Shown: positions 9,304 through 32,220 of the stretch, piece by piece | Layout: each line of letters starts with the position of its first letter | How positions within the stretch are numbered: position 1 is the stretch's first letter | Notes under the pieces: model-generated | The model's input: the letters and a program-made list of their open reading frames with translations, nothing else | Database searches by the model: none | Told to the model about the DNA's origin: nothing | Position numbers and translations under genes: made by a program | Origin: an uncultured Butyricimonas sp. | Lineage (GTDB): Bacteria; Bacteroidota; Bacteroidia; Bacteroidales; Marinifilaceae | Assembly (NCBI GenBank): GCA_944320555.1 | Contig: CALUHX010000004.1 | Coordinates: forward strand, 1-64,000 | Length of the DNA stretch: 64,000 nt | Direction of reading: 5' to 3'

Positions 9304-9950
9304 AAAAACACTTCATTGAAATTAATCCACATTTGACGTTTCAGTTCCCCCAAAGACACCCCCAACCGGGCAGAGGCGGCCTCATAAACAAGGCGGACGG
9401 GGAGAGGACGCTCGTCCGTCTCGAGAAAAAGACAGGCAAGGGGAATCTCCGGCAAGACGCGAAAAGCGTTCGACGAGGGATTCAGCAATGCTCCGCCGAG
9501 GGAAATGTGAAAACCGCAGTCGAGCAGCATGCGAAGAATCCGCTCATTGTTGTTGAAGCCGTGGACAATCCACGGCATTCGAAAACCGCCCGAGCGGCGC
9601 AGGGAGACAAGCTCCGGAAAGGCCCGCACGCAATGCACAATGACAGGCAAACCCCGCGTTTCGGCCAGCCGCGCCTGACGAAGGAACGCCTCCTCCTGCG
9701 CAGACAGAGAAATCGGCAACCGGCGGTCCAAACCACACTCGCCCACGGCCACCACATCCTCCCGCAAAAGAGCCTTGTCCAAAGCCTCCCAGTCACCGGG
9801 AGCGCTCTCCGCCAACCGAACCGGATGAATCCCCGCGGAATAGAACACCCCGGGCGAGGAACCGCCGAAAAGGCCCGTCCCCATGTCCAAGAGAGTCACC
9901 CCCTCCCCGGGAGCATGCGCATGAACGTTAACAAACAGCACGTCTTCCAT
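9288..9950 (-). CDS. TatD-family metal-dependent hydrolase
   Basis: 220 residues, shorter than the usual ~255-265. Metal ligands expected for TatD are seen: the VHAH pair (His10, His12), Glu in VAVGECGLD, His in VIVHCVRA, His in WIVHGFNN and Asp in LETDERPLP. TatD enzymes are nucleases or deoxyribonucleases acting in DNA repair, and this phylum has several paralogues. It is the first gene of a tatD-tcdA unit (16-base overlap). A possible -7 box (TTACTTTG on the minus strand) lies about 25 bases upstream. Confidence 0.88.
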   Translation of the reverse strand: MEDVLFVNVHAHAPGEGVTLLDMGTGLFGGSSPGVFYSAGIHPVRLAESAPGDWEALDKALLREDVVAVGECGLDRRLPISLSAQEEAFLRQARLAETRGLPVIVHCVRAFPELVSLRRSGGFRMPWIVHGFNNNERILRMLLDCGFHISLGGALLNPSSNAFRVLPEIPLACLFLETDERPLPVRLVYEAASARLGVSLGELKRQMWINFNEVFLWKNG

Positions 9951-10256
9951 ATCTCATCGTTTATCAGATGCAAAGTAACAATTTTCACCCCAACCGCGCA
10001 AGAGCTCACAATTTCCACCCCGTCATCTTCCCCCGCCGGCATCACGCATCCCGTCCCTCCATCCCGCAAACATAGTTTCCCCTTCCAAGGCAGAGTCCGT
10101 AGAAAACAATCACTCATGCTCATCCGCCTGTTTTGCGGCCCGCCCTTTGTCGCTGGGGAAAATATAAACACATGCCATTCCAAGACAAGAAGAGCATCCA
10201 AAAAGGAAAGGAGCACGTAAAACACACTTGGAGACAATCTCAACGGATAAACAAAG
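9951..10256. other. Intergenic stretch without recognised genes
   Basis: Roughly 300 bases between the tatD-like gene and the ssrA terminator hairpin. It holds the tatD promoter region near 9975. I see no convincing coding region, repeat or RNA structure in the rest. Confidence 0.5.
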
Positions 10257-22938: not shown

Positions 22939-24120
<1,182 letters not shown>

Positions 24121-24311
24121 CCCCGCCCGGCGGTTGCTCCCGGCGGGGCGACCGCCAGCCCTTGCGGTCACTACAACTTCCCCTGCGAAAAATAGGAATT
24201 CGCCGAAGGAATCTCCGGCAGTATCCCCCACTTATTATCAACAATCGTAATGCTATCCTTTTACTATCTGCCACATTTTGGGGACACTCCTTAAAAGCTA
24301 AAGGCAATTTA

Positions 24312-25847
24312 TTATCTCTTCTTGTACTTATACAAACATTTACCGTTTTCTAAATACATTACGGGGAATACGTCTTGCAAATCAATATTCAATAAATATC
24401 GCTCTCTTAAATAATTCAAATCCGATAACAACAAATAATAATCAGTTTGATGGTTTTTATCCAGCTTATCACAAAGTCTAATATCACATATGCCAAAGTT
24501 ATCATCGCATACATTCTGATATAAAAGAACATTCTCACATATGAGTACACTTTTTGATGAATTTGCTTGCATGTAATTACTAACCATCTGCACTTCCTTA
24601 AACCGTTCTTGATATTCAAGCTCTGACATTCTTAATCTGAGAGAGTAAGTTGTATATAACGAAAAAACCAAAGCCATACAGGCTATTAGTCCTATTTGAT
24701 TAAACTTGCATTTTATAGAAACGAACATTAGAGGTATTAAATAGAAAAAATTATTGATATACCTATATGTCTCAAATGAAGAAACACGTTCTTCTTTAAT
24801 GAAGAAATAGCCCCTATAATGTAATGTATATAATAAAAGATACACACTAAATAAGACAAACGGGAATACCATATCTAATGTCAATCTTTTGTTACGAATA
24901 AGAAGGTAAATTAGCCACGCAACAGTTATTATAAATACAAAAGAAAAAGCCTCAATACCGAACATAGCTTCAATAAAAGCTGGGAAGAGTATTGTCATAT
25001 ACCGAATTGAGAATGTCGCATTCTTTATATCTTTGGACTCAATTTTTTCTATGTCAAAAACATTTTGGACAAACAAAAAATAGACGCATATAATAAACAC
25101 AAAAGGAATGTATTTCAACAATTCTACAATGTGATTTTTAATATTGAATCTATATTTTCCAAAAGTCAGATAAACAAATTCAATAGCAGGCAAGGTAAGT
25201 AAAGCCAAATTTTCCCTTTTACACATAATTGCCACAAGAAATGCGACAAGACATAGGGTATAGTTATATATACTTTTTCCCCTAAAATAAGTATAGACGA
25301 ATATCAAACAAACAAAACTTGAAAATATCTCTGATAAGAAACAGGTAGTAAACACGTTTATTATAGGCGCACAGCAATAAAGAACCGGTGGAACAAACCA
25401 GGATTTTTGATTCTTTGGAAGTATCGACAATATGAGTAAAATAAAAAAGGCGATGCTGGTATTTGCTATACTCAAAATGGTTGGAGACCATCCAAAAATA
25501 TTCGTAAATAGAGACAAAAAGGTTGGATACATAATAAAATGCCCACCATAAGTAGAGGTTAACATCGGCTCCGTAAGACTTCCGACAGAAACAGCGTCAA
25601 CCAAGAAAGAACTTGGAAATATGTTATATAAGAATTGTCTTGCGCAAAAGCTAAAAACATAAGCATCCTCATACTCCAATCCCCAAAAATGAACGCCATA
25701 ATTATATTTAAACAAAAGAGTTAGAACCAAACAAAGCAATATGCGCTTATACGGTTTTTGTATGGACTTAAAATCCCATATAAGTTCATGAATAAATAGA
25801 ATGAATAAAAATATGATTAGAACGACACATAGATAATACTGCCCCAT
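24312..25847 (-). CDS. Multi-TM membrane protein, probable GT-C glycosyltransferase
   Basis: 511 residues with at least ten hydrophobic segments and an acidic first external loop (GLEYEDAY) in the position where GT-C enzymes carry their catalytic DD/DE motif. I do not recognise a named family. GT-C enzymes transfer sugars from polyprenyl-phosphate carriers on the outer face of the inner membrane. The start at 25847 is chosen because it lies 2 bases after the stop of the polyprenyl-phosphate-type glycosyltransferase gene, with a GGAGAAAGGA ribosome site. AT-rich, like the hxs genes ahead of it, and unlike purM, with which it converges. It is the last gene of the hxs cluster. Confidence 0.6.
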   Translation of the reverse strand: MGQYYLCVVLIIFLFILFIHELIWDFKSIQKPYKRILLCLVLTLLFKYNYGVHFWGLEYEDAYVFSFCARQFLYNIFPSSFLVDAVSVGSLTEPMLTSTYGGHFIMYPTFLSLFTNIFGWSPTILSIANTSIAFFILLILSILPKNQKSWFVPPVLYCCAPIINVFTTCFLSEIFSSFVCLIFVYTYFRGKSIYNYTLCLVAFLVAIMCKRENLALLTLPAIEFVYLTFGKYRFNIKNHIVELLKYIPFVFIICVYFLFVQNVFDIEKIESKDIKNATFSIRYMTILFPAFIEAMFGIEAFSFVFIITVAWLIYLLIRNKRLTLDMVFPFVLFSVYLLLYTLHYRGYFFIKEERVSSFETYRYINNFFYLIPLMFVSIKCKFNQIGLIACMALVFSLYTTYSLRLRMSELEYQERFKEVQMVSNYMQANSSKSVLICENVLLYQNVCDDNFGICDIRLCDKLDKNHQTDYYLLLSDLNYLRERYLLNIDLQDVFPVMYLENGKCLYKYKKR

Positions 25848-25849
25848 TT

Positions 25850-26551
25850 TTATTTTCCTTTCTCCTTTTGTTTTATTGTATAATATACTACTTGACACCC
25901 ATATCTCGCCGAACGTAAAAATTTTATCGAGGATGAAAGATTGTCATATCTCGCAGGGCAATATATTTCTTGTATTTCATACCCTTTTGAGAACGCTTCT
26001 ATAATAATCTGATTGTCAAAAATGAAATCATTTGAAAAATCATGATACTTTATGGACATAAGCACATCTTTTCTATAAGCCCTATAGCCCGTATGATATT
26101 CTGACAAATGTTTCTTAAAACAGATATTTTGAAACATTGTAAGTATTCTATTGCACAAATACTTGTATAACGGCATTCCATTCTTCACCGCCTCCCACCC
26201 TTTTAGCATACGAGAAGCAAGAACAATATCTGCCCCTTGTAGAATTTTGTCTACAATAAGTGTTATCAAATTGGGGTCATATTGATAATCTGGATGAAGC
26301 ATTACAACAATATCAGCGTCTAACATTAACGCTGTATCATAACATGTTTTTTGATTTGCTCCGTATCCAAGATTTTTATTGTGCTTGACGATATGTTTAA
26401 TACGACATTCTTTGGCAACATTTAAAGTGTCATCAGAACTAAAATCATCTACCAAGACGATATCATTGACAATATCATGAGGTATCTCTGATATCGTTTT
26501 CTTTAGAGATTTTGCACAGTTGTAAGCTGGCAGAACAACAATAACTTTCAT
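25850..26551 (-). CDS. Family-2 glycosyltransferase, polyprenyl-phosphate sugar synthase type
   Basis: 233 residues. GT-A fold with MKVIVVLPAYNCAKSL, VLVDDFSSDDT, the nucleotide/metal motif LMLDADIVVMLHPDYQYDP and HTGYRAYRKDVL, the pattern of dolichol-phosphate-mannose synthase-like enzymes. It has no TM tail, so it is cytosolic or peripheral. The expected product is a polyprenyl-phosphate sugar that the following GT-C-like membrane protein would use. It starts 78 bases after hxsA2, behind a hairpin. A role in modifying the HxS peptides is inference from context. Confidence 0.85.
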   Translation of the reverse strand: MKVIVVLPAYNCAKSLKKTISEIPHDIVNDIVLVDDFSSDDTLNVAKECRIKHIVKHNKNLGYGANQKTCYDTALMLDADIVVMLHPDYQYDPNLITLIVDKILQGADIVLASRMLKGWEAVKNGMPLYKYLCNRILTMFQNICFKKHLSEYHTGYRAYRKDVLMSIKYHDFSNDFIFDNQIIIEAFSKGYEIQEIYCPARYDNLSSSIKFLRSARYGCQVVYYTIKQKEKGK

Positions 26552-26579
26552 AAATCAATATCAATTTAAAGTTTCCAAA

Positions 26580-26605
26580 GTGCGCCCAATAAAAATCGGG
26601 CGCAC
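26580..26605 (-). terminator. Intercistronic hairpin between hxsA2 and the glycosyltransferase genes
   Basis: GTGCGCCC / GGGCGCAC, a perfect 8-base GC-rich stem with a 10-base loop, followed on the minus strand by only TTTGG. It is GC-rich in an AT-rich area. It may act as a partial terminator or mRNA stabiliser, making precursor mRNA more abundant than glycosyltransferase mRNA. Confidence 0.65.
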
Positions 26606-26629
26606 CGAAGAATCATTTAGCCTCACAAC

Positions 26630-26887
26630 TCATATGCTCGAATAGTGAGAACTATGCGACCTATGCGAAGTGTGGGAGCTATGCGAACTATGTGAGCTAT
26701 GGGAACTGTGGCTTGCGAGTAGATTAAACTCGGCAGAGGACTGTTCCAGCACCAACGTCTGTTCTTGCTGCTGTTCGATTTGAGTGTCGCTGTTTGTCAC
26801 TTTGGCGACAATCTTTTCTCCAACAGAAGTACAGTAGCTCGCTCCTGCAAGAATTGCAGAGACCGCAAAGAACAAGAGTTTCTTCAT
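26630..26887 (-). CDS. hxsA2: His-Xaa-Ser repeat precursor peptide (Sec-exported form)
   Basis: 85 residues. Residues 1-20 are a Sec-type signal (MKKLLFFAVSAILAGAS). A linker of ~38 residues rich in Gln/Glu leads to eight consecutive His-Xaa-Ser triplets at 60-83 (Xaa = S,S,S,S,T,R,S,Y), and the chain ends HYSSI. This is the substrate type of the Hxs radical-SAM system. It starts 33 bases after hxsC. The end HYSS plus Ile/Leu is shared with the first precursor at 28063-28284. The export signal differs (no lipobox), so the mature peptide should be periplasmic or secreted. Confidence 0.88.
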   Translation of the reverse strand: MKKLLFFAVSAILAGASYCTSVGEKIVAKVTNSDTQIEQQQEQTLVLEQSSAEFNLLASHSSHSSHSSHSSHTSHRSHSSHYSSI

Positions 26888-26920
26888 TGATACCTCCTTC
26901 TTTTAATGTTAGACAATCAG

Positions 26921-28066
26921 TTAATTAACACACGATATATCGGATGATATATATTCAATTCTCTTAATATGTGAACTATGGATTTCTCTGCTGGATTCAA
27001 AAAGACCTGCACATTGATTTCGCAATGCACAGCCTTCGCATTCAGAAATATATATATCCTTCCAGTCAGAGATAGACTGTTGGGCATAAGGCCTTACATC
27101 TTCAGGCAACACACATAATTGTGCATTGTATATATACGGCTTCATTCCTCTATCAGCGAGCAATAAAACAGCTTCCCGTAATTCTGTCCTATAATCAAAT
27201 GGGTCTATCCAAAGTTGTTCAATATTTTCCTTTGCTAAACCAACAGTTTCCATTTGAATAAATGCGACCTGTGCAACAAAGGGAAAATTGTGATAAATAT
27301 AATCTGCAAATTGTGGCAATCGCTTATAAGTCTGTTTATGGACTACAATTCTAATCCCTATTCGTTGATGGAACAATGCAAGGTTGTATAAGCCTTGCAC
27401 AGTCTTATAAAAAGTCTTTGCTCCAACTATACGATTGTGTTCTTCTGCTATGTCTGAAAAAAGCGGAATGTCTATCTGCAAATCATGATGCCTACATTTT
27501 GCCAATTTCATTGCATACTCCTTATCTGCAAACTTTACTCCATTTGACAGAATACTGATTGCAGTTTTAGGAAGTTCTTCCTTAATATGATTTATCAAGA
27601 CAAACAAATTATCTCCGATAAGTGTCGGTTCTCCTCCGGTTATACCGATTTCTTGAGTACTCTTGTCAAACAGAGAAATCAATTTCAAGTTGAATGGAGT
27701 CTTGTCCTTTTCTTGTAGTATTGGAGGTTGTGGGCACATAATGCAACGATGGTTGCATCGTTCTGTAGCCATTATCGCATTATGAATAGATTTAATTTCA
27801 TATACAAAAATTATTTCTCCTTGTTTATTTACGACTACAACATCTCCCTCATTAAAAACACCTATACTGCTAACAATGCAATAAGGTTTACCATTATCTG
27901 TAATGAATTCATTTGCTGTAATTGTTGCAACATATCCAGATTTCGGACTCGTGGCGTTTTTATTAACCCATATTTCATTAGTACGATGAAACACATTCTT
28001 TTTGAATGTTATTCGCCCAATAATATCTTCATTTATATTATATGAAATTCCTTTTATCTGTTTCAT
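26921..28066 (-). CDS. hxsC: His-Xaa-Ser system radical SAM maturase HxsC
   Basis: 381 residues. A ~95-residue N-terminal beta-rich domain precedes a radical SAM core with CNHRCIMC (Cys104, 108, 111), ITGGEPTLIG (142-151) and LQIDIPLFSD. Three further Cys near the C-terminus (343, 346, 352 in CEGCALRNQC) resemble an auxiliary cluster site. The last residues contain IHSSH, like its substrate. The ATG overlaps the stop of hxsA (ATGA), so the two are translationally coupled. Radical SAM chemistry on His or Ser of the repeat is expected; the product is not established as far as I know. Confidence 0.9.
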   Translation of the reverse strand: MKQIKGISYNINEDIIGRITFKKNVFHRTNEIWVNKNATSPKSGYVATITANEFITDNGKPYCIVSSIGVFNEGDVVVVNKQGEIIFVYEIKSIHNAIMATERCNHRCIMCPQPPILQEKDKTPFNLKLISLFDKSTQEIGITGGEPTLIGDNLFVLINHIKEELPKTAISILSNGVKFADKEYAMKLAKCRHHDLQIDIPLFSDIAEEHNRIVGAKTFYKTVQGLYNLALFHQRIGIRIVVHKQTYKRLPQFADYIYHNFPFVAQVAFIQMETVGLAKENIEQLWIDPFDYRTELREAVLLLADRGMKPYIYNAQLCVLPEDVRPYAQQSISDWKDIYISECEGCALRNQCAGLFESSREIHSSHIKRIEYISSDISCVN

Positions 28067-28284
28067 AAACTCGAATAATGTGATATATGTGAAAAATGTG
28101 ACGAATGTGATGAATGTGAAGCGTGCTGTATGCGGTCTATTATTGGCTGTTGGGTTGATGGTTGCAGAATCAATGAATCCACGTTGTTGCTTATGGATTC
28201 ATCCTCTTTTGCATTTTTTGTCGTCGAACAAGTTATTAAGCCCCAAAATGCAAATAGCAATATAACAATCTTTTTCATATTCAT
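28063..28284 (-). CDS. hxsA: His-Xaa-Ser repeat precursor peptide (lipoprotein form)
   Basis: 73 residues from ATG 28284 (a second ATG at 28278 is equally possible). A lipoprotein signal with Cys19 in GLITC, a ~34-residue linker, then six His-Xaa-Ser triplets at 54-71 (Xaa = A,S,S,F,I,Y), ending HYSSL. The mature repeat would be tethered to the membrane by its lipid, unlike hxsA2. It sits between hxsB and hxsC, 8 bases after hxsB, and overlaps hxsC by 4 bases. The Phe/Ile/Tyr in the Xaa positions become more hydrophobic toward the end, as in hxsA2. Confidence 0.87.
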   Translation of the reverse strand: MNMKKIVILLFAFWGLITCSTTKNAKEDESISNNVDSLILQPSTQQPIIDRIQHASHSSHSSHFSHISHYSSL

Positions 28285-28292
28285 TTTTATTT

Positions 28293-29717
28293 TCAATTTA
28301 ACCAAGACCAAAAAATTCTGTTTATCTCAGGGTCATGCTTGTGCAGTAACTCAAACAAATAACGTATTATTGATTTTGTCTTTTTACACATTTCATTTGT
28401 CGGTCTGAAACCAATCATATCTCCCTGTTCAGACATATTACGTACGGGGTCTGCACCGCAATAAGGCTGGAACACACATTCGGAACATACGGGTAGGCAC
28501 TCAGTACAAGCAGAAGAAATAATATGGTGTAGAAGTTCACCATTGAACATTTCCTGATAACTGTTTTCATTCACATTGCCCAGCCTGAAATAGTAGTTCT
28601 TGAAACGTGCCATCATTCGGGCTTCATCCGATACATATACACTCCCGTCATAATCATAGATGACGCCTGCAATTCCAACGCCTGCGGGAGATTGTAAATC
28701 AACAAAGCCTGTTGCAAACGGTGTAAGCATCCTCCTTAAAAGGAGTGCGGCAAATCCCTCTACAAAAAATGTTCCTTTCTTGTTCAATTCTATGATATAG
28801 TCAAGACCCTCTTTATAATTTTCAATGAAATCCTCTATAGGGTAAGCTATCTTTTCCTTGTACTGTTTTGCAAAACCGTATGGGTTAAGAGAGCGTAAGA
28901 ATATATTGTTGAATCCCAATCGTATGTATTCGTCAATTATTTCTGTAAAACGCCCCAAACTATATTTCGAGGTCGTCATAAGTGCGGAAGCACAATCATT
29001 GTTTCCCCATATTTCCCGTATCATGGAGAGATGCTTCTCAAAGATTGCATGATGGTCTAACTCGTTGTCTTGCAGCGGACGATTTGTGTCGTGCAGATCT
29101 TTAGGACCGTCCAACGATGTAGAAATCATACAGTTATGTTTCTTCAGGTATTTCACCATCTTTTCGTTCAGCAAGGTCAAATTGGTACAAATAACGAAAT
29201 CCAACTCTTTCTTTTTGAAAAGGTTTTGCCACTCTGCTTCCTCTATGATATATTTCACCATTTCAAAATCGGTTGAAGGGTCGCCGCCCTGAAACTCTAT
29301 CTTGATACACGGTGAAGGTGATTGGAAGATTGTTTTTACAATATTCTTAGCCGTCTGTTTTGTCATATCGGCAGAGTGGTCGTCCCGATTTTTGCGTGCG
29401 ACCTGACAATATATGCAACTGGAATTACAACGCAATGTCGGAACCACCATGTGTAGAGAAGTGAAGTCACGAAGTATGCTTTTCTTTGTGCGAAATTTTG
29501 TCGCAAGCATTGAAACCACATCTTCAACCTTATCTGTCGTAGCAATTTGTTTCGATTCAATATCATAAAACAAATCAGTATGTATATCCATTTCTCCATC
29601 CACAAAACGATGAAAATCCTCGTTTTGCAAGAAGATATATTCCCCGACTTCATTTGTAAGGAGATATTCTGTATCATTGAACCGTTCAAAACGGAATGGC
29701 AATAACTGATAATCCAT
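28293..29717 (-). CDS. hxsB: His-Xaa-Ser system radical SAM/SPASM maturase HxsB
   Basis: 474 residues. Residues ~5-80 form a small domain (FERFNDTEYLLTNEVGEYIF) resembling peptide-recognition elements of other RiPP maturases. The radical SAM motif is CNSSCIYC (Cys97, 101, 104), followed by FQGGDPS and STSLDGPKDLHD. The C-terminal SPASM domain carries Cys404, 407, 411, 414, 420 and 444 (CTECLPVCSEC, YCGADP), enough for two auxiliary 4Fe-4S clusters. It follows hxsD by 4 bases. This is the main maturase of the system. Confidence 0.93.
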   Translation of the reverse strand: MDYQLLPFRFERFNDTEYLLTNEVGEYIFLQNEDFHRFVDGEMDIHTDLFYDIESKQIATTDKVEDVVSMLATKFRTKKSILRDFTSLHMVVPTLRCNSSCIYCQVARKNRDDHSADMTKQTAKNIVKTIFQSPSPCIKIEFQGGDPSTDFEMVKYIIEEAEWQNLFKKKELDFVICTNLTLLNEKMVKYLKKHNCMISTSLDGPKDLHDTNRPLQDNELDHHAIFEKHLSMIREIWGNNDCASALMTTSKYSLGRFTEIIDEYIRLGFNNIFLRSLNPYGFAKQYKEKIAYPIEDFIENYKEGLDYIIELNKKGTFFVEGFAALLLRRMLTPFATGFVDLQSPAGVGIAGVIYDYDGSVYVSDEARMMARFKNYYFRLGNVNENSYQEMFNGELLHHIISSACTECLPVCSECVFQPYCGADPVRNMSEQGDMIGFRPTNEMCKKTKSIIRYLFELLHKHDPEINRIFWSWLN

Positions 29718-29721
29718 ATTC

Positions 29722-30054
29722 TCATTTTGAATTTACTGGTTTGAACGCTTCTTCAACTATCATATCACGAATGTGCCCAAATTGGGCATTAACGTCATGC
29801 CGCAGTTGTTGGTCTATCAATTCATTGCAAAATTGCTTGGGAATGCCAACGGTAATGACATTGTCATCCTTTGATTCAAAAATGACAAGCACCAAATTAG
29901 GATTGGATTTATCCGTTTGCTGATGAATATAAAACAAATGTGAAAACTTATAGATTGCTGCCGTTATTACATCTTTGGAATACAGAGCCAAATCTACAAT
30001 TACTTGAAACTTGTTATTATCAAGCTCGACAACGGGAAATTGAATCTTTGCCAT
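29722..30054 (-). CDS. hxsD: His-Xaa-Ser system protein HxsD
   Basis: 110 residues with no signal peptide. The family core DLALYSKDVITAAIYKFSHL is present near 21-40, followed by a beta-alpha segment. HxsD is the small partner always found with HxsB and HxsC; its role is unknown, probably substrate delivery or a maturase subunit. First gene of the operon, preceded by the structured leader at 30114-30426. A second ATG 5 bases upstream is out of frame. Confidence 0.85.
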   Translation of the reverse strand: MAKIQFPVVELDNNKFQVIVDLALYSKDVITAAIYKFSHLFYIHQQTDKSNPNLVLVIFESKDDNVITVGIPKQFCNELIDQQLRHDVNAQFGHIRDMIVEEAFKPVNSK

Positions 30055-30113
30055 ACCATCTTCAATGTCCTCCAGTCCCTCGAAGACTTTTCTACGTTAT
30101 TAAACACCAAAGC

Positions 30114-30426
30114 GTGGGACCGAGTCTGTCGCTCGTTCCACCATGTAAAGGCTCTCGCATTGCCCGATCAGTCGAAACGAGCAACGCCGAAAGCCCCACG
30201 CCGATGTCATTATATGTACCCTTGATTTTCCTGCCACAGAAGCGTGGCAAGACATGAAAAGGGTCGTGTATAACATCCCCAGGGACGTTCCCGTTGCCTT
30301 GTTTTTGACTGATCATAGAATTTGCGAGATTCTTACATGGTCAAAACACAAGCGTCCAGTAAACGCCTTTTATGTATCCGTGTCCCACCCTCACCAACAG
30401 CCGGCGGCTTTCGGCATAGGTGGAAC
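30114..30426 (-). ncRNA. Structured leader RNA of the hxs operon, family unknown
   Basis: Long-range perfect pairings, read by eye: GTTCCACC 30135-30142 with 30419-30426; CCATGTAA 30141-30148 with 30333-30340; TCTCGCA 30153-30159 with 30323-30329; GATCAGTC 30166-30173 with 30307-30314; a local TGCCAC/GTGGCA hairpin at 30232-30249. GTGGGAC 30114-30120 pairs with 30382-30388 across the outer helix, giving a pseudoknot or an alternative fold. The -7 box at 30431-30438 puts the transcript start at the outer helix on the minus strand. I cannot match it to RNase P, 6S, tmRNA or a riboswitch class. Confidence 0.72.
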
Positions 30427-30430
30427 ATGA

Positions 30431-30438
30431 CAAAGGTA
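30431..30438 (-). promoter_or_regulatory. -7 box of the hxs leader
   Basis: TACCTTTG on the minus strand, a perfect TAnnTTTG. The expected start point falls within a few bases of 30426, the first base of the outer helix of the leader RNA. No TTTG at -33 is seen. Confidence 0.65.
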
Positions 30439-30617
30439 GGGAAAAGTATTCAGAATTGGTATCACATCGCAGAAAAATTTATACAAACCGCCTCTTACAA
30501 ACAGAGCTTTGCCGCAGCCGCACCACCGTTCCCTCTTCAAGTGTCCCGCCGGGGCTTCGTCCGCCCTCCATCCCCACTCATCACCCGCTACAAAAACACT
30601 TCAAAAACATAACACAA

Positions 30618-30686
30618 GCCTATCAAAAGCAATAATTATAGCCTTTGATAAGCTTTTGATAAGCTTTTGGTAAGCTTTTGATATGG
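30618..30686. repeat. Four tandem 11-bp units with one inverted copy
   Basis: Units of TTTTGATAAGC at 30643-30653, 30654-30664, 30665-30675 (one change) and 30676-30686 (diverged end), preceded by an inverted copy GCCTATCAAAAGC at 30618-30630. The 11-bp period equals about one helical turn. The surrounding noncoding bases 30439-30617 and 30687-30837 show nothing else. Confidence 0.8.
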
Positions 30687-30837
30687 GCAAGACACAGGGA
30701 AAAGCCAACGCACAGGGAGCTCCGCAGAACGATTGCGACTGACTCCGCTCCAAAACACGACACATCGACAACCGCCATGTGCCATATTAGGCATTTCGCT
30801 CGAATTCAACTCATGCGGAGGTCTCTGAAAAAAGCAC

Positions 30838-30860
30838 AAAAAAAGAGCGGGAAAACGCTC
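30838..30860 (-). terminator. Terminator, probably the ancestral asmA terminator
   Basis: On the minus strand GAGCG, 6-base loop, CGCTC, then seven T. It lies 43 bases beyond the stop codon of the displaced asmA 3' copy (30903). Confidence 0.8.
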
Positions 30861-30902
30861 CGGCATGCCGTTTTTGCGTTTCCCCGTTCTTTTCCGCCGG
30901 AA

Positions 30903-30983
30903 TCATTCCCGAGCCGTCTGGAACATGCGGCGGATTTGGACCCCGGACGTTGAGCCGGGCGCTGTCCACCTTGGCCCGGCCGG
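30903..30983 (-). pseudogene. Displaced copy of the 3' end of asmA
   Basis: 81 bases align with 32140-32219, the last 26 codons and stop of the asmA-like gene, with six or so substitutions and one extra C that shifts the frame. Only the 3' end is present, no start or upstream coding. It lies before a terminator and behind the DUF1016 gene, as if that gene had been inserted at the end of asmA. Confidence 0.88.
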
Positions 30984-31031
30984 AAGATTACAACCATCAA
31001 GCCGAACTCACTTCACACTACCGCTTTTCTG

Positions 31032-32078
31032 TCACTCATCCTCTTTTCCATGCTGTTCCATAAAGAAACGTTTCTGCTGCTCAATCTCCCGGCGCAATTC
31101 CTCTTCGGTAGGCATGTATGTCATATATTTGGCAGCAAAAATCTGGTCGCTGTCGTGCAATACTGAATATTTTGCTATGGTGTTGTCCGTATCTGTGCAG
31201 AGCAACACGCCGACGGTCGGATTGTCATCCTTTCCCTTAACCAAATCATCGTACATACGGATGTACATATCCAGCTGTCCGATGTCCTGATGGGTCAACT
31301 TATGGGTCTTCAGTTCAAAGATGACGAACCGTTTCATCTTGTAATTATAGAATACAAGGTCGATGTAGAAATCAGCCGTATCGGTCACAATATGTTGTTG
31401 TCTTTCCACGAAAGCGAATCCACGACCGAGTTCCATGATGAATTTTTCGAGATTGTCAATCAATGCCTGTTCCAGTTCTGACTCGGAATAGTCGATGCTT
31501 TGGTGGAATCCCATAAATTCGGCCACCACCGGATTCTTTATGTATTCCAACGGATCCGCTTGACTGGTATAAGGCGCGGGCAGAGTCGAACTCTCCTTTT
31601 GGGCCGCAAGCCGTCGTTCATAATATTGGGTGGAGATATTCCTGTCAAGATCGTCCACACTCCACATATCCTCGGCGGCTGTATTCAGATACCATTCCCT
31701 TGCTCGCGTATTGCTGACGGAAAGAAGCCTGCGGACATGTGACCAAGTAAGATTTTGCACACGCGTGTGCAAAATCTCCACGTCTCTGAATTCCAGATAG
31801 AACTTCCGATAATATGCCAAATTACGCTTACCATAGCCGGTTCCGTATTCCGCAGAAAGCCTGGCTGCAAGAGCCGGAATAAGTTTTTGTCCGTATGCAG
31901 CCCTGCTTGCTCCATGTTGCTCCTCTTCCACGATACGCCGTCCGATGTTCCAATAAGTCATGATGGCTATTTGGCCTGTTGCGGCATACGCTTGTTTCCG
32001 TCCTTGCTCTATAATGGTTCTGATATCGGAAACGAGATTCTCGGTTATTACATCGATCTGTTGTTTATTCTTTTCCAT
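31032..32078 (-). CDS. DUF1016 / YhcG-type PDDEXK nuclease-domain protein
   Basis: 348 residues. The N-terminal DUF1016_N winged-helix part (TYWNIGRRIVEEEQHG, GYGKRNLAYYRKFYLEF, LSVSNTRAREWYL) is followed by the YhcG PDDEXK domain: DNLEKFIMELGRGFAFVERQ, FYIDLVFYN (Asp) and RFVIFELKTHKLTHQD (Glu-x-Lys). Predicted DNA endonuclease of a family tied to mobile DNA and phage defence; some members stimulate recombination. Flanked by the asmA tail duplication, so likely a recent insertion. 48-62 bases of spacer lie on each side of the gene. Confidence 0.9.
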   Translation of the reverse strand: MEKNKQQIDVITENLVSDIRTIIEQGRKQAYAATGQIAIMTYWNIGRRIVEEEQHGASRAAYGQKLIPALAARLSAEYGTGYGKRNLAYYRKFYLEFRDVEILHTRVQNLTWSHVRRLLSVSNTRAREWYLNTAAEDMWSVDDLDRNISTQYYERRLAAQKESSTLPAPYTSQADPLEYIKNPVVAEFMGFHQSIDYSESELEQALIDNLEKFIMELGRGFAFVERQQHIVTDTADFYIDLVFYNYKMKRFVIFELKTHKLTHQDIGQLDMYIRMYDDLVKGKDDNPTVGVLLCTDTDNTIAKYSVLHDSDQIFAAKYMTYMPTEEELRREIEQQKRFFMEQHGKEDE

Positions 32079-32139
32079 ATTCCAAGAATTACACGGCCAC
32101 GAAGATAAGAGTATTTAGAATATACATAATATATCAAAT

Positions 32140-32220
32140 TCATTCCCGGGCCGTCTGGAGCATGCGGCGGATTTGGGCCCGGACGTTGAGCTGGGCGCTG
32201 TCCACCTTGGCCCGGCGGGA
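32140..32220. repeat. asmA 3' end, right-hand copy of an 81-bp direct repeat
   Basis: Partner of 30903-30983. The two copies start at the asmA stop codon and extend 80-81 bases into the coding region, enclosing the DUF1016 gene in a 1.24-kb unit. Confidence 0.85.

Follow-up and report, generated by a model that had tools for sequence, protein, structure and literature searches.

The DNA analyzed here (the window, a stretch of 64,000 nucleotides from an uncultured Butyricimonas sp.) carries an Hxs operon, in which radical S-adenosylmethionine (SAM) maturases are encoded together with proteins ending in His-Xaa-Ser (HXS) repeats. We concluded that the locus is a complete Hxs operon, a known kind of system whose chemistry is unsolved. 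With a probability of about 0.7, we read it as a horizontally acquired operon that modifies two exported HXS repeat proteins, here called A1 and A2. What the sequences show is the set of genes, their close packing in one direction, an anatomy common to the precursors, and that the system is conserved and mobile; the modification itself is inferred. New here are an extra, variable precursor, an Hxs-exclusive membrane-protein gene accompanied by a family 2 glycosyltransferase (GT2) gene, and a structured RNA leader.

Gene content and layout of the operon

An initial annotation of the window had proposed a complete Hxs operon with two further genes on one strand. All seven open reading frames (ORFs) were confirmed on the minus strand at the coordinates it had given (Table 1). 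HxsD, HxsB, and HxsC each scored above the cut-off of the corresponding NCBIfam model, and the adjacent repeat precursor A2 scored above that of the HxsA-type model NF038296, which bears out the operon as complete. The models of the Hxs system are reportedly the work of Haft and Basu in 2011. A Radical_SAM domain was found by Pfam in both HxsB and HxsC, and the NCBIfam scores placed the two enzymes in their own families, not in unrelated radical SAM families.

The genes are transcribed in the order hxsD, hxsB, A1, hxsC, A2, the GT2 gene, and the membrane-protein gene. Within the Hxs genes, gaps of 4 bases (hxsD to hxsB), 8 bases (hxsB to A1, with its ATG at 28284), and 33 bases (hxsC to A2) agreed with the 4-33 bases reported earlier, but A1 and hxsC overlap by ATGA. 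Further 3', A2 and the GT2 gene are separated by 78 bases, and the GT2 gene and the membrane-protein gene, with its ATG at 25847, by 2. This spacing fits one operon.

Conservation and distribution

When one genome was scanned for each species, 44 other Bacteroidales-type loci with the system were found (nearly all from Bacteroidales, and one from a bin labelled Roseburia), so that the HXS ORFs are conserved among relatives. In these loci, hxsD, hxsB, and hxsC were clustered together, and an A2-type precursor lay 3' of hxsC in at least 32 of the 44; many loci without a counted A2 were ended by contig breaks. Another HXS protein was present in about 12 of the 44 relatives, at varying places.

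The system was sporadic. In a sample of 393 genomes of the order, 15 had an HxsB above the cut-off, and no Hxs system was found in the one other genome of the same genus that was examined. An HxsB relative outside the Bacteroidales-type group was present in 380 plasmid records. Among these, 316 were from Klebsiella, with about 30% identity and mostly on conjugative plasmids, and formed a distinct Hxs group that is both large and common. Ten further Hxs loci were read, from Proteobacteria, Cyanobacteria, and Cytophagales.

Shared anatomy of the precursors

Both precursors end as the initial annotation had described. The tail of A1 consists of six perfect triplets (HAS HSS HSS HFS HIS HYS, then SL) and that of A2 of eight (HSS four times, HTS, HRS, HSS, HYS, then SI), giving the common terminus HYSS(I/L). 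From the N-terminus, A1 is built of a signal sequence, a LILQ motif 12 residues before the tract, the six triplets, and HYSSL; A2 is built of a Sec signal, a LVLE motif, the eight triplets, and HYSSI.

The same elements were found when 63 distinct precursors with 427 tract triplets were compared. The third residue was Ser in 419 triplets, with Ala in 4, Phe in 3 (all in one protein), and Asp in 1, while 15 kinds of residue occurred in the middle. The last triplet was H-Y-S or H-Y-x in 51 of the 63, usually followed by another Ser. A motif of the form [LIFV][VILT]L preceded the tract at a near-constant distance, which was 11 residues in most A2 proteins and 10-13 residues in Proteobacteria. Among 51 non-redundant precursors, 38 from across phyla had the motif at an allowed distance of 10-15 residues, compared with a mean of 2.4 and a maximum of 8 in 2000 rounds of shuffling. 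His codons in all tracts were divided between 218 CAT and 209 CAC, and codons for the third Ser were mostly TCN with all four wobble bases represented. This synonymous variation pointed to selection on the protein pattern, as opposed to a DNA repeat of recent origin.

Because the LILQ motif, the tract, and the HYSS end are shared across precursors, A1 is a credible second substrate of the same maturases despite failing the family models. The longest tracts were seen in two relatives (L036 and L047, both at 9528-9989), where precursors of about 19 triplets end in HYSA and several triplets are split by extra Gly-Thr or Ser. They provide a natural test of maturase reach.

A variable second slot and its carriers

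The gene for the second HXS protein lies between hxsD and hxsB in, for example, L010, L016, L017, L030, L036, and L047, between hxsB and hxsC in L035 and L037 as in the window, and between hxsC and A2 in L007. The encoded proteins (81 to 190 residues) are nearly unrelated to one another apart from the motif and the tract, and those of L017 and L030 have an extra stretch C-terminal to the tract.

The A2 Sec signal in the initial annotation was correct, but the lipobox assigned to A1 was not canonical, since LITC has Thr at -1, outside the usual [AGS]. Thr occupied this position in 3 of the 40 lipobox-like N-termini in the loci examined, and A1 may still be lipidated. Lipoprotein-like N-termini were found in A1, L019, L044, and one of the precursors of L036, and plain Sec N-termini in most other second precursors (L010, L016, L017, L030, and L047). 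With a non-canonical LITC, and with anchoring not conserved among relatives, the claim that one precursor is lipid-anchored and the other released was not sustained. In distant Bacteroidota and in Aeromonas, a longer C-terminal part follows the tract; in L074 it is a peptidoglycan-binding domain (PF01471), and the proteins of L077 and L081 are annotated as peptidoglycan-binding. Common to these proteins, to judge from their sequences, is an HXS tail that stays in the envelope on differing carriers, and one anchored and one released precursor would be one possible instance of this.

Other exported proteins with zero or few HXS triplets and unclassified domains were observed in the slot (L017 9432-10004, L030 9435-9989, L018 9558-10004, L035 9495-9992, and L019 2338-3171), and a Sel1-repeat protein is encoded between hxsB and hxsC in L019 and L020. 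The long proteins that L017, L018, L030, and L035 encode in this slot were compared for a common extra domain, which was rejected, with no convincing relation and no Pfam match; a weak match between L017 and L030 was probably due to the HXS tract itself.

The maturases

Comparison of 41 homologues showed a CX3CX2C motif at residues 97-104 of HxsB and invariant Cys residues at 177, 196, 404, 407, 411, 414, 420, and 444, the set expected of a SPASM enzyme that carries auxiliary Fe-S sites. In HxsC, C104, C108, and C111 occur together with four Cys at 318, 343, 346, and 352 (97-100% conserved), the latter being consistent with one auxiliary cluster. By sequence, HxsC resembles viperin- and MoaA-like enzymes. 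HxsB is nearest to PapB (the best match), Nif11/SCIFF-type enzymes, and sulfatase maturases, with cyclophane enzymes further away; it scored below the cut-offs of the cyclophane maturases GrrM/OscB (48 against 310 bits), YhhB (52 against 445), and AmcB (52 against 425). We read HxsB as a SPASM enzyme closest to maturases that attack side-chain carbons.

The predicted fold of HxsD is b-b-a-b-b-a with a long last helix (mean predicted local distance difference test score, pLDDT, 90). The strict definition of the recognition element (RRE) of ribosomally synthesized and post-translationally modified peptides (RiPPs) requires the order bbb-aaa (PMC12710340), and HxsD was rejected as a classical RRE on this element order, not on the absence of fold matches. 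Fold searches returned only generic, middling matches of the ferredoxin-like type (at best Z 6.8, across 60 residues), which prove nothing. HxsD may have a recognition role of another type.

The GT2 gene and an Hxs-exclusive membrane protein

Two attached glycosyltransferases had been proposed in the initial annotation, and the first of these was supported. The Glycos_transf_2 domain of the GT2 protein passed its cut-off, and its best solved relative was dolichol phosphate mannose synthase (5mlz, E 3e-13). The second protein matched no family: no NCBIfam or Pfam match, no credible PDB match, and no profile match to two PMT_2 proteins of the same genome were found. Its layout is GT-C-like, with at least eight hydrophobic segments, an EYED motif around residue 60, and a soluble C-terminal part; its structure model (pLDDT 43) was not used.

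The pair also occurs in two Paraprevotella loci, L004 and L005 (76-86% identity for GT2 and 78% for the membrane protein), and in L028 (55% and 40%, respectively), and it always lies immediately 3' of A2. A profile of the membrane protein found nothing outside Hxs loci in 393 genomes of the order, in 395 genomes of the phylum (the two samples share a few genomes, about 780 in total), or in plasmids. As far as seen, the family is confined to Hxs loci, which favours a function acting on the Hxs product.

Horizontal transfer of the operon

The operon has a G+C content of 32-39%, compared with about 57% in the region, and DNA homology with L004-L008 and other loci ends at 24282 and 30120. The flanking purM-like gene is 74-77% identical to those of the genomes holding L005 and L004, compared with 83-91% for the operon. 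On these comparisons, the operon is an AT-rich island that has been transferred horizontally. In G001, a genome of the same genus (L159 and L162), other genes are found beyond the purM-like and AsmA-like genes, and the interval between these two genes in the window (24091-32142) looks like an exchangeable slot.

The slot of the window holds the Hxs operon and a YhcG/DUF1016 nuclease gene (31032-32078). That of G001 has one gene resembling, by eye only, a fragment of a sacsin-type ATPase. Short tandem units of the type TTTTGATAAGC lie at 30637-30690, between the leader and the YhcG gene.

Proposed mechanism and alternative explanations

We propose that HxsD, with HxsB and HxsC, would recognize the [LIF][VIL]L motif, which is a guess because the element order of HxsD is non-classical. 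The maturases would then move along adjacent triplets in the cytoplasm and change each His/Ser pair (i,i+2), HxsB probably making one change of minus 2 Da per triplet and HxsC a second change. Because no protease or peptide exporter was conserved adjoining the Hxs genes in the relatives' loci, the modified proteins would be exported by Sec with the modification in place and remain in the periplasm or on the cell surface. A2 would be the invariable product, and A1 would carry the same tail in a lineage-specific way. In the four known loci with the pair, including the window, the exported product is probably glycosylated by the polyprenyl-phosphate-sugar synthase together with the dedicated membrane protein. 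The leader RNA probably governs expression of the operon.

For the reaction itself, published enzymes provide the closest analogy. HaaB and YhhB, which are SPASM enzymes, link C2 of His with C-beta of the residue at i+2, MscB links C4 of Phe with C-beta of Ser, and in HghB/C/D two radical SAM enzymes act on His and Ser (PMC11002830). The substrate pattern of such triceptide maturases, with His at i and its partner at i+2, was found as H-X-S in 419 of the 427 tract triplets. By analogy with these His and Phe crosslinks, a bond between the His ring and Ser C-beta (i,i+2) would be the single likeliest reaction, a choice that we make tentatively. The near-strict Ser favours chemistry that needs the hydroxyl, and such chemistry, taking formylglycine or other oxidation and an ether jointly, is in our view only slightly less likely. 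Exchange of Ser for Ala was rejected as proof of a C-beta bond, since the 4 Ala triplets are too few. Mass alone cannot decide, because the crosslink and formylglycine share the same mass change.

Several observations weigh against our reading as a whole. Ser is more strictly kept than a C-beta crosslink needs, and the element order of HxsD departs from that of a classical recognition element. A1, alone among the five genes matched to the HxsA-D models, passed none (best TIGR03979, 31.8 against 121.65 bits). The GT2 and membrane-protein pair is present in 3 of the 44 relatives, and the membrane protein is, by its layout, no more than a candidate GT-C glycosyltransferase. No Hxs chemistry or product was found published in the searchable literature, and none was observed here; a search of a survey of Bacteroidales RiPPs (PMC10352776) gave no mention of Hxs.

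We considered four other explanations. If HxsB acted like an anaerobic sulfatase maturase, each triplet Ser would become formylglycine (minus 2.016 Da per triplet), leaving surface aldehydes beside imidazoles. HxsB indeed matches these enzymes across its radical SAM and SPASM regions (TIGR03942, E 8e-23; 4k36, E 2e-10), and a Ser in third place in 98% of triplets fits a hydroxyl-requiring reaction. Its score of 81.1 bits is, however, far below the TIGR03942 cut-off of 349, it also matches crosslinking maturases with PapB as the best, and oxidation of Ser has no need for a strict His at i-2, so we consider this explanation unlikely. Somewhat less likely still is that the tails belong to metal-binding export proteins (for copper or zinc, for example) with the radical SAM enzymes making a minor change such as epimerization. 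Each exported tail carries six to nineteen His, and noursin, a His-containing crosslinked peptide, binds copper selectively (PMC11002830). But for metal binding alone, neither a Ser as strict as the His nor a spacing of exactly three would be needed, and no metal transporter or sensor was conserved adjoining the Hxs genes.

The two remaining explanations concern single parts of the operon. A1 might be a decaying duplicate or relic, leaving A2 as the sole working substrate, as its failure with the models and its absence from L004 and L005 could suggest. We consider this improbable, as A1 keeps its signal sequence, LILQ at 12 residues, six intact triplets with synonymous codon variation, HYSS, and ATGA coupling to hxsC, and the second HXS proteins of relatives have the same elements in unrelated sequences. 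The GT2 and membrane-protein genes might be chance neighbours that serve the cell envelope and not the Hxs product. The small number of loci with the pair and the generality of this GT2 type, with 19 GT2 places in the genome, make this conceivable; its constant position directly 3' of A2, in two lineages whose membrane genes are only 40% identical, and the absence of the membrane gene elsewhere in the Bacteroidota genomes and plasmids make it rather doubtful.

A structured 5' leader RNA

A leader of about 330 nucleotides lies between a putative promoter, TACCTTTG, and hxsD, and its predicted fold was far more stable than that of shuffled sequences (z -5.9). The -7 box of Bacteroidota promoters is TAnnTTTG, and a similar box was found at the same place in most homologous leaders. 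Homologues occur 5' of hxsD in ten other Hxs loci, and also 5' of unrelated genes in genomes without Hxs. Ten leader sequences have in common one long hairpin, in which 22 pairs showed changes on both sides, spread across several helices and sequences. Cells with such changes numbered 55, compared with 14.6 +/- 3.2 in shuffles and at most 11 when the partners were slid; the alignment also served to derive the structure, so that the percentage of paired positions is flattered. We regard the leader as a real structured RNA.

No Rfam match was found up to E 1 among 4227 covariance models for either the leader of the window or the L103 copy, and no match to the leader was found in plasmid records. 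A sequence model of the 3' part detected the leader in 27 of 295 Bacteroidales genomes, with up to 8 copies each. Copies are located in L103-L108 and L139-L158. In 20 of the 20 copies read, an ORF on the same strand starts 7-218 nucleotides 3' of the leader. Among the products are type II methyltransferases, helicases of the SNF2/HKD and UvrD-like kinds, a vWA/PP2C/kinase set, and lipoproteins, and the accessory operons headed by the leader are of restriction-modification, defence-like (helicase or kinase), and envelope types. The leader is probably a cis-regulatory element, and a role as an attenuator is a guess. A riboswitch with a terminator was rejected, because the 3' hairpin, GTGGA...TCCACGTTTT, is weakly stable and poor in the window.

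Whether these sequences form an undescribed RNA family of about 330 nucleotides, serving as cis-regulatory leaders of Bacteroidales accessory operons, whether Hxs, restriction-modification, defence-like with helicase and kinase genes, or envelope lipoprotein operons, is in our view evenly balanced. If it is true, radical SAM peptide maturation and defence-type cargo are controlled by RNA devices of one kind. An abiF RNA (RF03085, above the gathering score) was observed at 3905-3942 of L016, just 5' of the Segatella copri Hxs leader, which is another hint of a defence-type neighbourhood.

Table 1. Coordinates of the operon and its leader in the window (aa, amino acids).
Feature	Coordinates	Strand	Product or description	Support
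hxsD	29722..30054	-	110 aa, partner protein	TIGR03976, 92.8 bits (cut-off 50)
hxsB	28293..29717	-	474 aa, radical SAM/SPASM maturase	TIGR03978, 644 bits (cut-off 370)
A1, second His-Xaa-Ser precursor	28063..28284 from ATG (ORF open to 28311)	-	73 aa	
hxsC	26921..28066	-	381 aa, second radical SAM maturase	TIGR03977, 381 bits (cut-off 268)
A2 (hxsA2), precursor	26630..26887	-	85 aa	NF038296, 62.8 bits (cut-off 48)
GT2 glycosyltransferase gene	25850..26551	-	233 aa, polyprenyl-phosphate-sugar synthase type	PF00535, 66.3 bits (cut-off 23.3)
Membrane-protein gene	24312..25847 from ATG	-	511 aa, unclassified, GT-C-like layout	
Structured 5' leader RNA	30105..30430	-	One long hairpin and a weak 3' terminator-like hairpin	Fold z, covariation
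TACCTTTG, at the leader 5' end	30431..30438	-	Match to the -7 box TAnnTTTG, putative promoter	Sequence

Significance and comparison with known systems

Hxs systems have so far been defined by sequence models alone. The precursor rules found here, an LVL-type motif, 10-15 residues, an HXS tract, and an HYSS end, make the open chemistry simple to test. The constant A2, the variable second slot, and the peptidoglycan-binding carriers elsewhere belong to the same rules, which point to a product retained in the envelope and not to a released antibiotic. The Hxs-only gene family offers an entry point to a possible glycosylation step, and the leader is a separate candidate for a new regulatory RNA.

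Compared with the known Hxs system, the window is alike in having HxsB, HxsC, HxsD, and HxsA2 above the cut-offs, in the adjacency of their genes, and in a C-terminal repeat tail on an exported protein. It differs by an A1 below every model, by the order D-B-A1-C-A2, by the GT2 gene with the Hxs-exclusive membrane gene, and by the structured RNA leader. Anaerobic sulfatase-maturating enzymes (TIGR03942, PDB 4k36) share detectable homology with HxsB and a Ser substrate; Hxs differs from them by its score (81 against 349 bits), by the lack of a sulfatase, and by repeat substrates. The bicyclostreptin system HghB/HghC/HghD (PMC11002830), compared by description, likewise combines a pair of radical SAM enzymes with one further small protein and targets His and Ser, but with a single HGH motif, no repeats, and an RRE-type partner from which HxsD differs in its predicted element order. 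The triceptide or three-residue cyclophane enzymes (HaaB, YhhB, and MscB; PMC11002830) are alike in being SPASM radical SAM enzymes that act on repeated three-residue motifs with an aromatic residue or His at i and a small residue at i+2. Hxs differs from them by an HxsB far under the family cut-offs, by a second radical SAM enzyme, by HxsD, and by Sec-exported carriers, and a crosslink on the HXS tract is a prediction.

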